A stretch of 64,000 nucleotides of DNA, taken from positions 62,001 to 126,000 of the forward strand of contig JAFDWZ010000015.1 of assembly GCA_018268195.1 (NCBI GenBank), written 5' to 3'. Every line of letters starts with the position of its first letter. Position 1 is the stretch's first letter. The notes beneath the pieces are model-generated. The model made no database searches, was not told where the DNA came from, and was given only the letters and a program-made list of their open reading frames with translations. Of the stretch, positions 49,023 through 55,142 are shown one piece after another. This stretch comes from Bacteroidota bacterium. Lineage in GTDB: Bacteria; Bacteroidota; Bacteroidia; AKYH767-A; OLB10. Both the position numbers and the translations under genes were made by a program.

Positions 49023-52000
49023 TTAACGGATAAGGTTGAAAGAACCTTTCTTCGTTTCAGATTTTACACCGTTATCATATTCCAGTATGAAGTAATAAAC
49101 TCCAGCTGCAAGGTTTCCTCCATTCCAGTCGTTGTTGTATGGGTTGGCGCTATACACCTTTTTGCCCCAACGGTTGAATACGGTAAGCTTGCGTACAGGG
49201 AAATCAAGCAGATTTTTAACTTCAAACACATCGTTTTTGCCATCATTATTAGGTGTGATAACATTATAAACTTCAACTTCGCATGGTATTTCAAATACTT
49301 GTATTACATCGGAGTTGCGACATCCGTTTGAGTCAACAACAGTAACTTTATACTCACCTATAGCAGCCACTGTAACATTGGCATTTGTAGAGATGTTTTC
49401 ACCATTAAGCGCCCATTGATAACTTTGGATGAATGCGTTATTTACCAATGTTAATACCGGTGCAGGACTTTGTGTCATACAGAATGGGATACTGTCCTGA
49501 CGTTGCATTTCGTCCTGAATTAACGGAGAAGGTAAAGCATTTATACTTACAACTACATTGTCTGTACTTGTACATCCGCTTGCATTGGTTACAATTACAG
49601 CATAGGTTCCTGCGCTTGATGCAGTGATACTTGAATCGGTAGCATCGCCAATTGGATTGTTATTAAGCGTCCACTGGAAAGTGTAACCGTTACCGTTTGC
49701 TGTTGAGAGTGTGGCAGGATTATCTCCGGTACACTGTACAATATCGTTACCAAGACCAACGGCAGGAGCGGCATTAATGGTAAGTGCCATTGATGCATTT
49801 GCTGTACAAGTAAAACCGTTTACAGTATTGGTAATGGTAACGGCATAGTTACCTGCACCGGTACTGGCAGTATTTAAAGTAGAACTGTTTCCGCCAACAT
49901 TGCTGTTATTAAAGGTCCAGTTGAATACCGTATTATTACCGGCACTTGCAGTGTAACCCGGATCAAGTACAGGAGCAGTAACGTTATCGCATTGCGAGAT
50001 GTTTGACAATGTAGCCGAAGGTTGTTCTACTTCAGTTACATTGGCAGTAGCATTAGCCGAACACGAACCGGCAGTGATGGTAACTTCGTAAACTCCTGAA
50101 CCGGTTACAGGAACAGAGCTTCCGTTTTGCCCCTGAATGGCCGTGCCATTTAAAGTCCAGTTGTAGTTAACACCAGTGTTTGGAGATGAAGACTGTAAGG
50201 TAACACTGTTTCCGCTGCAATAGCTAAGGTCGCTCATAGTAATACTTAACTGCTGTTCAACAGTAACTTCTACTGTATCACGTCCAAGGCAGGAAGCACC
50301 AATATTTACTTCTACAAAATAAGTTCCTGCAGCAGTAGGTGTGTATTGCTGTGTAGTAGCACCAGCAATGGCGGTATTGTTTTGATACCATTGATAAGTA
50401 GCTCCGGGGTTGCCGGCATCTAAGGTTGGGAATGGATCACTTGCACATAAATGAATATCATTACCTAAATTAACTATAGGAGCAGCAATAATGTTTACCT
50501 GAACGGTATCGGCTCCACTACATGATGCAGAGGTCTGTATATTGACAATATATTGACCTGTAGTGGTTGCTGGAATCGTTTGTGTGTTTTGTCCCTGAAT
50601 GATTGTACCGTTTAAGGTCCATTCATAAGTAGCACCGTCAAAATAACCTGCATTCAATTGAGGTGTGGGGTCGCTGGAGCAAACGGTAATGTCCGTACCC
50701 AGATTAACATCAAGAGTACTTCTCACATAAATAGTACCGATAGTATCATTCGCTAAAATCAGCGTGCCGCATCCATTGGCCATTGTATTTAAGTCGCTTC
50801 CGTTATGTACTATCACCGTTAACGGGCTTACTGCATTACTTGTTGATTGTGTAGTAAGCACAAACTGATTTCCGAAGTGACCTCCGTTTATACCGGTGCA
50901 TGTAGCTCCTGTTACAGGTATGTTTGTACCATTGGCATCAACAATAATAAAGTCGCTGCCATCAGCAGCTATAGAGAAACAATCTATCAACTGGTTGCTG
51001 GTAATGTTTATATGATCAAAAGTACAATCTAACGTATCGGTAAGATTAAACGCATAGTTTGCGGAATCATAAAGATTGATAAATAAGGTATCGAATTCGT
51101 TCATTGGCGAACCACACTCACTCAGGAAGGTGTTTCCATCATTTCCTATTTTGGTAAATAAAGCAGAAGTACCGCCTTGAATCGGATTAAGTACCGACAC
51201 TCTGATTGAATCTGTTAAACCGTTAGTACAATTAACTCCGGTAGCAGATACAACAGGATTAGGTGTACCATTAGGATTAAGCATCCTGATGTCAGAAGGA
51301 ACGATTGAACCACACTGAATAGAAGGATTAACTACAATGTAAAAGACGGTATCGTGACAAGTTACATTGTTAACACCGGTAACAAAATTAAGTCCATTAG
51401 CAACCAGTGTACTGTCGAAAGAGGGTGTTGCAATGATACATGTTGCTACAATGTTTATCTGGAGTTCGCGTTTAACAATGGTTTTCAGAGCACCGGTTAC
51501 TCTGTCATATTCATAACAGCGGATAGCAATTACCGGAGTTTGGATAGTGTTTGGTAAGAAAGAAATCACACCGGTATTTACATTAATAGTGGTTCCGTTT
51601 GCCGAAGCAACAGGATTGCTTCCTGACAAAGGAGCATTATAAGCAAGGGTGGTTGGAGTCATTGGACATGAACCTGAAGCATCCTGTGCACCAATCAATG
51701 AAAATTGTAAAGAATCATTATCGGGGTCAATAGCGCCCTGATCAAAATAAAACTGATTATTAACACAGAACTGAGTTACAGGAATTGAATTAAAATATGG
51801 AGAGCTGTTTGTAGGATAGTCCAGGTTGTTCATGGTTGCTTCCAGATACATACCTAAACCAGAGGCATTTGCAAGATTGGTGACGTTATTATTACGGCAG
51901 CAAACTTCCCATTGAAATTTCCAGTCCAAACATTGTGCAGGCATAACAAGTACAGCCTGATAAATATATTCCTGAACACCGTATCCCGTACCTCCGCTAC

Positions 52001-52310
52001 AAGTTGTAGCTCCTGATGCAGGAACACATGGTGTTGGAGGTATTTCCTGACCCGAACCGGGAAGAAGGTTCAAGGTTAAAGTCTGATTAATGTTACAAGA
52101 AGCAGAAGTGTAACAAATAGTTTCTGTAGGATCCATGGTTATACCGGCACAATCGCGGTACAATCTCAGTTTTACGAGGAAGGTATTCGGGCTTCCTGTG
52201 TAGGTGTACGATATGTCACCCGCTGCAATGTGTGAGGCATTACCGGTTTCCGGTTTCAGGATAATGCCGATAAGACACATGGCCATTATTCGAATTAAAT
52301 TTTTAATCAT
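49023..52310 (-). CDS. Large secreted protein with Ig-like repeats and T9SS type B sorting domain
   Basis: 1095 residues. Signal peptide near 1-25 (IMAMCLIGIILKPETGNAS). An N-terminal cysteine-rich domain (about 30-300) begins ASHIAAGDISYTYTGSPNT. From about 530 to 1000 are roughly six repeats of 80-90 residues with PKD/Ig-like pattern, for example the LGNDI...C...P...L opening and the Y-W-N/T-L-N-G-T...G turn. The end carries the gliding-motility C-terminal (T9SS type B) domain: NVITPNNDGKNDVFEVKNLL, LTVFNRWGKKVYSANPY, AAGVYYFILEYDNG. It should be secreted to the surface by T9SS as an adhesin or scaffold. Third gene of a putative cassette with the sigma factor. Confidence 0.92.
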   Translation of the reverse strand: MIKNLIRIMAMCLIGIILKPETGNASHIAAGDISYTYTGSPNTFLVKLRLYRDCAGITMDPTETICYTSASCNINQTLTLNLLPGSGQEIPPTPCVPASGATTCSGGTGYGVQEYIYQAVLVMPAQCLDWKFQWEVCCRNNNVTNLANASGLGMYLEATMNNLDYPTNSSPYFNSIPVTQFCVNNQFYFDQGAIDPDNDSLQFSLIGAQDASGSCPMTPTTLAYNAPLSGSNPVASANGTTINVNTGVISFLPNTIQTPVIAIRCYEYDRVTGALKTIVKRELQINIVATCIIATPSFDSTLVANGLNFVTGVNNVTCHDTVFYIVVNPSIQCGSIVPSDIRMLNPNGTPNPVVSATGVNCTNGLTDSIRVSVLNPIQGGTSALFTKIGNDGNTFLSECGSPMNEFDTLFINLYDSANYAFNLTDTLDCTFDHINITSNQLIDCFSIAADGSDFIIVDANGTNIPVTGATCTGINGGHFGNQFVLTTQSTSNAVSPLTVIVHNGSDLNTMANGCGTLILANDTIGTIYVRSTLDVNLGTDITVCSSDPTPQLNAGYFDGATYEWTLNGTIIQGQNTQTIPATTTGQYIVNIQTSASCSGADTVQVNIIAAPIVNLGNDIHLCASDPFPTLDAGNPGATYQWYQNNTAIAGATTQQYTPTAAGTYFVEVNIGASCLGRDTVEVTVEQQLSITMSDLSYCSGNSVTLQSSSPNTGVNYNWTLNGTAIQGQNGSSVPVTGSGVYEVTITAGSCSANATANVTEVEQPSATLSNISQCDNVTAPVLDPGYTASAGNNTVFNWTFNNSNVGGNSSTLNTASTGAGNYAVTITNTVNGFTCTANASMALTINAAPAVGLGNDIVQCTGDNPATLSTANGNGYTFQWTLNNNPIGDATDSSITASSAGTYAVIVTNASGCTSTDNVVVSINALPSPLIQDEMQRQDSIPFCMTQSPAPVLTLVNNAFIQSYQWALNGENISTNANVTVAAIGEYKVTVVDSNGCRNSDVIQVFEIPCEVEVYNVITPNNDGKNDVFEVKNLLDFPVRKLTVFNRWGKKVYSANPYNNDWNGGNLAAGVYYFILEYDNGVKSETKKGSFNLIR

Positions 52311-52347
52311 GATGATTTTGATTTGATAGTTATACTTATGTTGTTTT

Positions 52348-53250
52348 TTAATTTCTTCTTAATTGCAGCTTGATGGTTGTTTTGTAAATTTTTCCATCAA
52401 AACCTTTTCCGTTTATCATTACAATATAAATTCCTTCTTCAGCCTCATTTCCATTTTTCATTTTTCCGTTCCAGTTGCCACCGGGTTGATTCCACTCATA
52501 AACCAATTTATAGTTTTTAGAATTATAAATCTTTACGTTTACCTCACTCAGATAGCTGTCGTCAAAATCAAAAACATCGCCAATGCCATCACCGTTTGGC
52601 GTGAAAATAGTATTGCCGAGTCCGGGGATGGTGGCTGTTTCCGATTTTGCAATGTTGTTTTGCTTAACAGGTTCAGGAGTTTTATTTTCCGTAACCGGAG
52701 CTTCCGCAGACACCGCTTTTTTAACAGGTTCTGATTTAACATTGCTGTTATCGGCAGCCGGAGCAGCTGTTACGTTCTCCTTGTGGCTACTGCTAATGTT
52801 AGAAACCGTTGGAACTTCGGTTTTCACTATTGGAGTTACCGGTTGTACTTTTGGCTCGGCCTTGGTTTCTTTTTTAGCATGTCGTGGTTTTTCGGTTTTT
52901 ACTTTTTGATGTTCGGTTTCGGTATTTTGTGTTTGCGCTTCGCTGCTTGGCTGAATGGCCGGAGCAACCACTTCCTGTGGGGCTGTGGCTGCAGGCATAG
53001 GCACATTTTCCTGTGTACGATTTGTGTAATGTAGTATTCCTGCAGTGATGAGAGCAACACCGGCAATCATTGAAGCAGTTTTCACCACGAGCGCTTTGTT
53101 TCCGGCAGAGGAGATTACTTCATTTACCGGATTTACCGCTGATGGCTGAATGGAATTCTCAATTTTTTGCCATAAAGCATTATCTACAGGCGCTTCATAG
53201 CTGCTGAAGGCGTCTTTAAAAAGTTGCTCTATGTTTTTTTCTTCCATCAT
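52348..53250 (-). CDS. Membrane protein with anti-sigma-like N-terminus and gliding-motility C-terminal domain
   Basis: 300 residues. Residues about 1-45 are a cytoplasmic segment (EQLFKDAFSSYEAPVDNALW) like the N-terminal region of proteins encoded next to ECF sigma factors in this phylum. A single membrane helix follows (about 52-74, VVKTASMIAGVALITAGIL). After a long Pro/Ala/Lys-rich linker, residues about 205-300 resemble the gliding-motility/T9SS C-terminal domain (FTPNGDGIGDVFDFDD, then NGKMKNGNEAEEGIYIVMIN). It starts 17 bp after the sigma factor gene. I infer a membrane-bound regulator of the sigma factor carrying a T9SS-type domain outside the cytoplasm; no anti-sigma fold is proved. 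Confidence 0.78.
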   Translation of the reverse strand: MMEEKNIEQLFKDAFSSYEAPVDNALWQKIENSIQPSAVNPVNEVISSAGNKALVVKTASMIAGVALITAGILHYTNRTQENVPMPAATAPQEVVAPAIQPSSEAQTQNTETEHQKVKTEKPRHAKKETKAEPKVQPVTPIVKTEVPTVSNISSSHKENVTAAPAADNSNVKSEPVKKAVSAEAPVTENKTPEPVKQNNIAKSETATIPGLGNTIFTPNGDGIGDVFDFDDSYLSEVNVKIYNSKNYKLVYEWNQPGGNWNGKMKNGNEAEEGIYIVMINGKGFDGKIYKTTIKLQLRRN

Positions 53251-53267
53251 GTTTTCCCTAATGGGAG

Positions 53268-53795
53268 TTATTTTATTTTTTCTTCTGTCAATAATTTTTG
53301 CAGGAGTTGTCTTGCTCGTGCAAATTGCGATTTGGATGTTCCGGCAGAAATACCTAACTGATTAGCTATTTCCTGATGTGAATAACCTTCAATAGCAAAA
53401 AGGTTAAACACTGTTCGGTAACCATCAGGAAGCGACTGAATTAATTTAAGTAAATCTTTTGCTTCCATTTTTGTGTTGGTAACAGCCGTATCACTTGTGT
53501 CAATATACTGATTATCAAAAGACTCGAAGCTCAGCTTTTTACTACGCAGGTTTTCCAATGCCGTATTGATGATTACCTTTTTAATCCATCCTTCCAAAGA
53601 ACCTTCGCCACGGTAAGTGGCTATTTTCTGAAACACTTTGATGTATCCGTCCTGTAATAAATCTTTCGCCTCGTCCTCATCTTTGGTGTACCGCAGGCAC
53701 ACCCCCATCATTTTTGATGCTGTAAGCTCATACACTTTCTTTTGTGCCCTGCCGTCTCCTGCCTTACATTGTTGTATGAGTTCATCATTTAGCAT
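53268..53795 (-). CDS. ECF RNA polymerase sigma factor
   Basis: 175 residues: sigma-2 (about 10-80, with RYTKDEDEAKDLLQDGYIKV) and sigma-4 (about 118-170, with FAIEGYSHQEIANQLGISAG and TSKSQFARARQLLQKLL). Linker lacks sigma-3, so it is a group 4 (extracytoplasmic function) sigma factor. It directs RNA polymerase to a small regulon, probably in response to a membrane signal. A housekeeping-type promoter (TTG at 53847-53845, TATTTTTG at 53826-53819, 18-bp gap on the minus strand) lies upstream, so the operon does not look purely self-driven. Divergent from the histidine kinase at 53991. Confidence 0.95.
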   Translation of the reverse strand: MLNDELIQQCKAGDGRAQKKVYELTASKMMGVCLRYTKDEDEAKDLLQDGYIKVFQKIATYRGEGSLEGWIKKVIINTALENLRSKKLSFESFDNQYIDTSDTAVTNTKMEAKDLLKLIQSLPDGYRTVFNLFAIEGYSHQEIANQLGISAGTSKSQFARARQLLQKLLTEEKIK

Positions 53796-53818
53796 CCGTG
53801 CTCTTATTATAAAGGATG

Positions 53819-53847
53819 CAAAAATAAGAGGCCGGGTTGCACGACAA
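53819..53847 (-). promoter_or_regulatory. Promoter of the sigma factor operon
   Basis: Minus-strand TTG at 53847-53845 and TATTTTTG at 53826-53819 are 18 bp apart, close to the vegetative Bacteroidota promoter. The ATG of the sigma gene is 24 bp further on. Confidence 0.55.
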
Positions 53848-53990: not shown

Positions 53991-55142
53991 GTGAATATTT
54001 ATACACAAAAACAACGATGGAAACTGTTGCTACTCGCAGCAGCTATGCTCATAGGGCTTGCTTCCTTATGGTACACCAACAACCTGGTGTCGAAACTTAG
54101 TGAAGAAGAGCGCAAGAAAGTGCAGTTATGGGCTGAAGCGTCCAGGCAATTGGCCAATATTTCTGTTGATGCCGGAGATATCAGTTTCTCACTCATGGTT
54201 TTGCAGGATAATAATACTGTTCCGGCAATACTTACCGATGCAGAAGGAAAAATCATCTCTCACATAAACCTTGATACCACAAAGGCTCAAAGCAATGATT
54301 ATTTATTGGAAGTGCTGCAAAAAATGAAAAGCAAGCACGAGCCTATTGAAATCGAGTTTGCCAACAACCAGCATAATTACATTTATTACGAAGACTCAAA
54401 GGTTTTATACCAGCTGCGGTTTTATCCCTATTTCCAGTTGGGAATTATCGCACTGTTTCTGCTGGTGAGTTACCTTGCTTTCAGCACTTCACGCAAAGCC
54501 GAACAAAATCAGGTTTGGGTAGGTATGGCCAAAGAAACTGCTCATCAGTTGGGAACACCCTTGAGCAGCCTCATGGCATGGCTTGAATATTTAAAAGCTT
54601 CTGATAGCAACCCCGCTCATTTGGCAGAGTTGGAAAAAGACGTAAATCGCCTGAACACCATTACGGAGCGTTTTTCAAAAATAGGCTCTGCTCCGGTGTT
54701 GAAGAAAGAGGATGTGAACAACGTGATTGAAAATACCATTTCTTATGTGAGCACACGTGCTTCCACAAAAGTGGCATTCAAACAGAATACAGCACAGTCA
54801 CATCAGGTATTTGCACCGCTCAACGTTCCATTATTTGAGTGGGTTCTCGAAAATATATTTAAAAATGCCATTGACGCTATGGATGGCGAAGGCGCCATAA
54901 CGGTTACGCTGATTGATCAGCAGCAGTTTGTTTATATTGATATTGCCGACACCGGAAAAGGTATTCCGAAATCAAAATTTAAAACTGTTTTCAAACCGGG
55001 ATACACATCTAAAACCCGCGGATGGGGACTGGGACTTTCGCTCAGTAAACGTATTGTTGAAGAGTATCATAACGGCCACATCTTTGTTAAAAGTTCAGAG
55101 CCTGATAAAGGAACCGTTTTCCGTATTGTGCTGCGCAAGTAA
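53991..55142 (+). CDS. Sensor histidine kinase (HQLGTP H-box type)
   Basis: 383 residues starting at GTG 53991; the first ATG (54045) would cut off part of the first membrane helix. Membrane helices at about 10-28 and 147-165 flank a periplasmic sensor of about 115 residues. The H-box is KETAHQLGTPLSSLMAW (H185), a form common in Bacteroidota, followed by HATPase motifs NIFKNAIDAM, DTGKGIPKSKF and GWGLGLSLSKR. No receiver domain or partner regulator is adjacent. This H-box type also includes, as far as I recall, T9SS-linked kinases such as PorY, and the ECF sigma cassette is divergent from it; a link is speculative. Confidence 0.9.
   Translation: MNIYTQKQRWKLLLLAAAMLIGLASLWYTNNLVSKLSEEERKKVQLWAEASRQLANISVDAGDISFSLMVLQDNNTVPAILTDAEGKIISHINLDTTKAQSNDYLLEVLQKMKSKHEPIEIEFANNQHNYIYYEDSKVLYQLRFYPYFQLGIIALFLLVSYLAFSTSRKAEQNQVWVGMAKETAHQLGTPLSSLMAWLEYLKASDSNPAHLAELEKDVNRLNTITERFSKIGSAPVLKKEDVNNVIENTISYVSTRASTKVAFKQNTAQSHQVFAPLNVPLFEWVLENIFKNAIDAMDGEGAITVTLIDQQQFVYIDIADTGKGIPKSKFKTVFKPGYTSKTRGWGLGLSLSKRIVEEYHNGHIFVKSSEPDKGTVFRIVLRK

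Follow-up and report, generated by a model that had tools for sequence, protein, structure and literature searches.

In Bacteroides thetaiotaomicron, the dual membrane-spanning anti-sigma factors (Dma) were described together with the Das proteins, which are extracytoplasmic function (ECF) sigma factors of the ECF21 group (PMC13088901). Among the published members, Dma1 and Dma2 have effects on vesiculation and polysaccharide utilization loci, and the dma2 phenotype depends on the cognate sigma gene (PMC13088901). In Porphyromonas gingivalis, an ECF sigma factor acting on genes of the type IX secretion system (T9SS) belongs to the PorA/PorXY-SigP pathway (PMC7712824, PMC4800418), and the signal that activates PorY in this pathway is still undetermined (PMC7712824). 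T9SS cargo with a type B C-terminal domain (CTD) is associated with PorP/SprF-like shuttles (PMC12618676, PMC9143113), and in F. psychrophilum T9SS genes share one ECF-type promoter class with a sigma/anti-sigma pair (PMC9723704). Here, a locus encoding an ECF sigma factor, a membrane protein ending in a CTD (P2) and a T9SS cargo protein (P3) was analysed in a 64,000-nt stretch of a Bacteroidota genome (GenBank GCA_018268195.1, contig JAFDWZ010000015.1, positions 62,001 to 126,000), referred to as the window. The locus is read, with a probability of about 0.55, as an autoregulated ECF sigma/anti-sigma switch for T9SS cargo, in which P2 would be a Dma-like anti-sigma factor presenting a mimic of the cargo CTD.

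The three genes run together on the minus strand, as the original prediction had stated, with gaps of 17 nt between the sigma gene and P2 and 37 nt between P2 and P3. Because a promoter and a terminator bracket the three genes and the gaps are short, sigma, P2 and P3 form a single predicted transcription unit, composed as follows.

53814..53841, minus strand: ECF-type promoter, TGCAACCCGGCCTCTTATTTTTGCATCC, 19 nt 5′ of the sigma start codon
53268..53795, minus strand: ECF sigma factor, 175 aa
52348..53250, minus strand: P2, predicted CTD-type anti-sigma factor, 300 aa (homologues directly 3′ of a sigma gene at 66 loci; AlphaFold2 models)
49023..52310, minus strand: P3, type B T9SS cargo, 1095 aa (CHU_C 78 bits, TIGR04131 51 bits)
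49038..49274, minus strand: CTD of P3, source of both scores
48967..49000, minus strand: strong intrinsic terminator after P3, with a 15-bp stem and a T tail

The identification of the first gene as an ECF sigma factor was confirmed by the Pfam domains Sigma70_r2 and r4_2, both above cut-off. The promoter motif TGCAAC-N17-CATC[TC] occurred only once in the window, at 53814–53841 (0.07 expected), and the operon promoter was present in all four genomes of the genus. The motif or a close variant was located 5′ of the sigma gene in 57 of the 66 sigma/CTD-anti-sigma loci, compared with 1.6 expected from Markov-shuffled sequence, which indicates that the sigma factor autoregulates its own operon.

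P2 was proposed from the start to combine an anti-sigma-like N-terminus, a membrane helix and a T9SS-like CTD, and this composition was upheld by its N-terminal homology, its hydropathy and its CHU_C score. Four segments were distinguished.

53131..53250, minus strand: residues 1–40, cytoplasmic anti-sigma-type domain of two helices with the motif E-x10-E-x2-V-x4-W (hhalign)
53023..53079, minus strand: residues 58–76, single transmembrane helix (hydropathy)
52636..53022, minus strand: residues 77–205, disordered periplasmic tether (no structure predicted, pLDDT ~50–60 or lower)
52351..52635, minus strand: residues 206–300, type B T9SS CTD without NRWG (CHU_C 36.7 bits, cut-off 27)

The AlphaFold2 model of P2, built from 59 homologues, contained N-terminal helices at residues 6–16 and 24–33, a short membrane helix at residues 63–76 of low confidence and, after a long unstructured stretch, a CTD modelled at a pLDDT of ~95–98. 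No Sec signal peptide was found at the N-terminus of P2, where about 57 hydrophilic residues precede the transmembrane helix and there is no N-terminal hydrophobic segment. Within the genus, the CTD was the most conserved part of P2 (83% identity, dN/dS 0.04) and the tether the least conserved (41% identity). The distance between the membrane helix and the CTD was 124–282 residues in the 66 homologues, with a median of 173, a length that fits a reach to the outer membrane, to which the tether may be put. An additional PKD domain was present in some homologues. P2 gave no match in a PHROGs search and only weak matches to Ig-like (immunoglobulin-like) domains of FlgD and C5a peptidase in a PDB sequence search, and Foldseek on the first P2 model returned mixed Ig-like matches.

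A profile of the P2 N-terminus, run against 296 Bacteroidota genomes, mainly retrieved proteins of 440–620 residues with a sigma gene directly upstream, and also shorter proteins of about 250 residues. The longer, barrel-type relatives end in outer-membrane beta-barrels (OMP_b-brl_2 in 16 of 21). The P2 N-terminus was aligned by hhalign with the N-termini of the barrel types at a probability of 98.9% and with those of the short-type anti-sigma factors at 98.5%. The likeness to Dma rests on these barrel-type relatives, the B. thetaiotaomicron proteins being compared by description. A sigma gene and a CTD-type anti-sigma gene adjoin each other at the 66 loci, which come from many Bacteroidota families, and the start codon often overlaps the preceding stop codon. 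Full-length CTD-type matches were distributed over about 36 of the 295 genomes of the class, in at least nine families, and in the named collection a CTD-type protein followed 23 of the nearest 80 sigma homologues. Examples are Crocinitomix catalasitica, Acidiluteibacter ferrifornacis and Fluviicola chungangensis. When 141 paired sigma factors were placed in a tree, the sigma factor of P2 was related to those beside barrel types, and the CTD-type label needed 6 changes compared with 47 in shuffles; the CTD type may have a single origin.

Some related arrangements were observed in the same survey. One anti-sigma factor with a PKD domain and a weak CTD (L076:1492-2802) was paired with a sigma factor on a distant branch, and possibly gained its CTD independently. 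A third anti-sigma type of about 250 residues, without an outer domain and with a basic C-terminus (L087, L088, L093, L105-L107 and similar), stands beside related sigma factors that have the same promoter, and a gene of about 270 residues regularly comes next. In family f69 (L213, L216, L217, L222, L224), a second ECF sigma gene directly follows the CTD-type anti-sigma gene, and is itself followed by genes of about 245 and 605 residues.

A stricter promoter pattern was scanned in ten other CTD-type genomes, a small, hand-picked set of carriers. The pattern matched 24 sites, and the reversed control matched none. Six sites were the promoter of the sigma gene itself, and twelve others lay in or beside intergenic DNA. 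Seven of these twelve were directly 5′ of T9SS cargo genes above curated cut-offs, encoding type B (L285, L287, L288, L293) and type A (L286, L290, L295) proteins, and four more preceded genes of secreted proteins. When set against a cargo background of ~4%, taken from the flanks of the sigma genes, 7 of 12 corresponded to P ~1e-7. Enrichment of the predicted regulon in T9SS cargo is supported, and since related sigma factors share the promoter, sites in these genomes may be those of paralogous sigma factors.

In the genome of the window, the likely second target of the sigma factor is a gene for a secreted beta-flower protein, which in three genomes of the genus (the window genome, G039 and G041) is preceded by the same ECF promoter at a distance of ~170–260 nt. 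The protein (L296:404-799, G000:C11) has 131 residues and YDGSGRxIGR repeats with five-fold arrangement (PF21785). Its counterparts were located beside L199 and L200. A motif 228 nt before gldM, a candidate for sigma control of the T9SS machinery in the window genome, was rejected as chance because it falls within the preceding gene and had no counterpart in the three further genomes of the genus.

The CTD of P2 was compared with the CTDs of cargo proteins. All 16 aligned P2 members matched TIGR04131 at E≤1e-3, CHU_C was found in all 16, and five members from the order of the window genome, when scanned singly, were all above the TIGR04131 cut-off. The P2-type CTDs retain TPNGDGxND, WDG, GxYxY and the basic end of the cargo CTDs. 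The tryptophan of NRWG was found in none of 68 P2-type CTDs compared with 55 of 63 cargo CTDs (a set that includes one truncated P2), and the arginine in 13 of 68 compared with 61 of 63; P2 of the window has NSKN at this position. Five conserved type B motifs were each needed for the SprB CTD to be secreted in F. johnsoniae (PMC12618676), and NRWG is presumably one of them. The predicted fold of the P2 CTD matched the NucA CTD in the T9SS translocon (8glk_D, Z 8.8) and also aligned with the RemZ and RemA CTDs from T9SS translocon complexes, PorZ and PorU, at Z-scores that unrelated Ig-like domains reach as well. The resemblance to domains that direct proteins to the T9SS, which had been noted for P2, holds for most of the signature; because NRWG is systematically lost, the CTD of P2 is more likely a tethered mimic of cargo, probably not exported, than a functional signal for export.

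The sequence itself shows the architecture of P2, its homology and conservation, the promoter and which kinds of genes the predicted regulon contains; we infer the binding of the sigma factor by P2, the topology, the recognition of the CTD by the T9SS and the direction in which the system would respond. In the proposed mechanism, the cytoplasmic helical domain of P2 would hold the sigma factor, one helix would span the inner membrane, and the long disordered tether would cross the periplasm with the type B CTD at its far end. The CTD would be recognised by a T9SS component, either a PorP/SprF-like shuttle or the SprA translocon, and would not be exported. Its capture, or a failure of capture while genuine cargo fills the machinery, would be relayed along the tether, and the grip of P2 on the sigma factor would loosen or tighten. 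The direction of the response is a guess, by which free machinery would engage P2 and the sigma factor would be released. The freed sigma factor would transcribe its own operon, including P3, and other secreted and T9SS-cargo genes, and cargo synthesis would be matched to export capacity. We hold tentatively, at somewhat less than even odds, that the system is a T9SS secretion-capacity meter, in which an inner-membrane anti-sigma factor would offer the export machinery a tethered sorting-signal mimic that cannot itself be exported, and so would couple sigma-driven cargo synthesis to export capacity.

Several observations weigh against the reading of the operon as a T9SS cargo switch. The CTD of P2 alone scored 25.9 against TIGR04131, under the curated cut-off of 35, and the loss of NRWG could equally mean that this CTD no longer meets the T9SS at all. 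The promoter is shared by the sigma factors of short types (25 of 32) and of some barrel types (10 of 44). In the window genome, the exact intergenic matches were only the operon and the beta-flower gene, and the T9SS machinery genes had no credible promoter site. No PorP/SprF gene was found beside the operon. SprA was present in 286 of the 295 genomes of the class, so that co-occurrence with SprA is uninformative. When the order of the window genome was excluded, adjoining cargo was found at 3 of 23 CTD-type loci of the named collection compared with 0 of 50 barrel and short types (P=0.03).

An unlikely alternative is that the CTD of P2 is exported through the T9SS. P2 would then span the envelope, and its shuttle-held CTD at the surface would report surface or tether tension in the manner of Dma with another anchor. 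Type B CTDs do remain at the surface with PorP/SprF-like proteins (PMC9143113, PMC12618676), the tether of at least 124 residues would be compatible, and the architecture equals that of the barrel-ended Dma proteins. However, NRWG was lost in all P2-type CTDs while export of the SprB CTD required every conserved motif, and a membrane-anchored cargo could jam the translocon. Equally improbable is that the CTD does not touch the T9SS and is only an Ig-like periplasmic domain, re-used to sense something different, for example a ligand, peptidoglycan or stress on the envelope. The absent NRWG, the sub-threshold TIGR04131 score of the window CTD, the extra PKD domain of some homologues and the similar Ig-like folds in many unrelated proteins are consistent with such a sensor, whereas the retention of the remaining CTD motifs and the cargo-enriched predicted regulon argue for the cargo mimic.

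P3 itself was predicted to be a type B T9SS substrate with Ig-like repeats, and this was verified by a CTD above cut-offs that carries NRWG, by a signal peptide (read by eye) and by Ig/PKD-like repeats. Its first ~300 residues form a conserved N-terminal domain that starts with SHIxGGx and has no Pfam match. Two of the seven promoter-linked cargo proteins have this domain, which was seen under the same promoter in L285:220-1794 and L287:226-4221. Homologues of P3 followed P2 in 15 of 17 loci examined in its own order, and cargo followed in a few other loci; overall, cargo was the next gene in 18 of 41 CTD-type loci compared with 0 of 50 barrel and short types (P=4e-8, with a bias from that order). 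Of the trio envisaged as a cassette, the conserved unit is the sigma/P2 pair, and the order sigma/P2/P3, kept in that one order, is sporadic elsewhere. Somewhat less credible than the two preceding alternatives is a product-specific feedback, in which P2 would directly sense P3 or P3-like cargo by CTD–CTD or CTD–repeat contact in the periplasm: P3 lies within the operon in its own order, and in two other genomes (G480, G543) a P3-domain protein is placed elsewhere under the same promoter, but many CTD-type pairs have no adjoining cargo. A chance neighbourhood, with P2 an unrelated surface protein beside the sigma gene, found no support and is refuted by the 66 conserved pairs and their common N-terminal domain, and deserves practically no weight.

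The window genome encodes one SprA, one PglZ (PorX-like) and seven PorP/SprF-like shuttles, and has sixteen type B CTD matches above the curated cut-off. A divergently transcribed membrane histidine kinase (window 53991-55142) lies beside the sigma gene in this genus only; in the remaining genera of the family, this position is taken by another gene, of ~595 residues. The kinase was rejected as PorY, with 49 bits compared with a cut-off of 350, and the PorX-like gene lies elsewhere in the genome.

The original prediction was thus borne out in the anti-sigma type of P2, the own-order trio and the cargo in the predicted regulon, and was corrected on the export signal, which is probably a cargo mimic, on the trio as a unit and on the unpublished architecture. 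Little is known of how cells adjust their output of large T9SS adhesins and enzymes to what the export machine can handle, and P2 is a concrete, genetically testable candidate for such matching across many Bacteroidota families, including named strains. No paper on an anti-sigma factor joined to a T9SS CTD was found in the literature searched, a scope that did not extend to Dma1 (PNAS 2024) and the ECF reclassification (NAR 2021); within the same literature, the principle of a capacity meter would be new for the T9SS.

When P2 was compared with the known systems, Dma was the closest in architecture. Like Dma, P2 has an N-terminal anti-sigma domain, one transmembrane helix, a long disordered tether, an outer C-terminal domain and an adjacent sigma gene. 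In contrast, P2 ends in a T9SS-type CTD and not in an outer-membrane beta-barrel, and T9SS cargo occurs in its operon and predicted regulon. Because the barrel is a defining feature of Dma, P2 is termed Dma-like. The system had been thought unpublished; its anti-sigma part follows the published Dma architecture, and only the sensor end is new, which suggests a modular design in which one outer sensor domain can be swapped for another. As in the PorA/PorXY-SigP pathway, a CTD protein is linked to the control of an ECF sigma factor acting on T9SS genes. However, PorA is secreted as a protein of its own, has a signal peptide and acts upstream of a two-component system, whereas P2 carries the CTD itself, and the kinase adjoining the operon is not PorY. 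PorA and the promoter class of F. psychrophilum are the nearest precedents for an anti-sigma factor with a T9SS CTD. The CTD of P2 belongs to the same domain family as type B cargo (TIGR04131/CHU_C), whereas P2 is membrane-anchored and has no signal peptide, no NRWG and no adjoining shuttle gene. In the FlgM/sigma-28 system, the activity of a regulator is coupled to the secretion machine that exports the products of its regulon. P2 is proposed to be coupled in the same manner to the export machine for the products of its own regulon. FlgM differs in being a soluble protein that leaves the cell through its machine, whereas P2 has a tether and is probably not exported.

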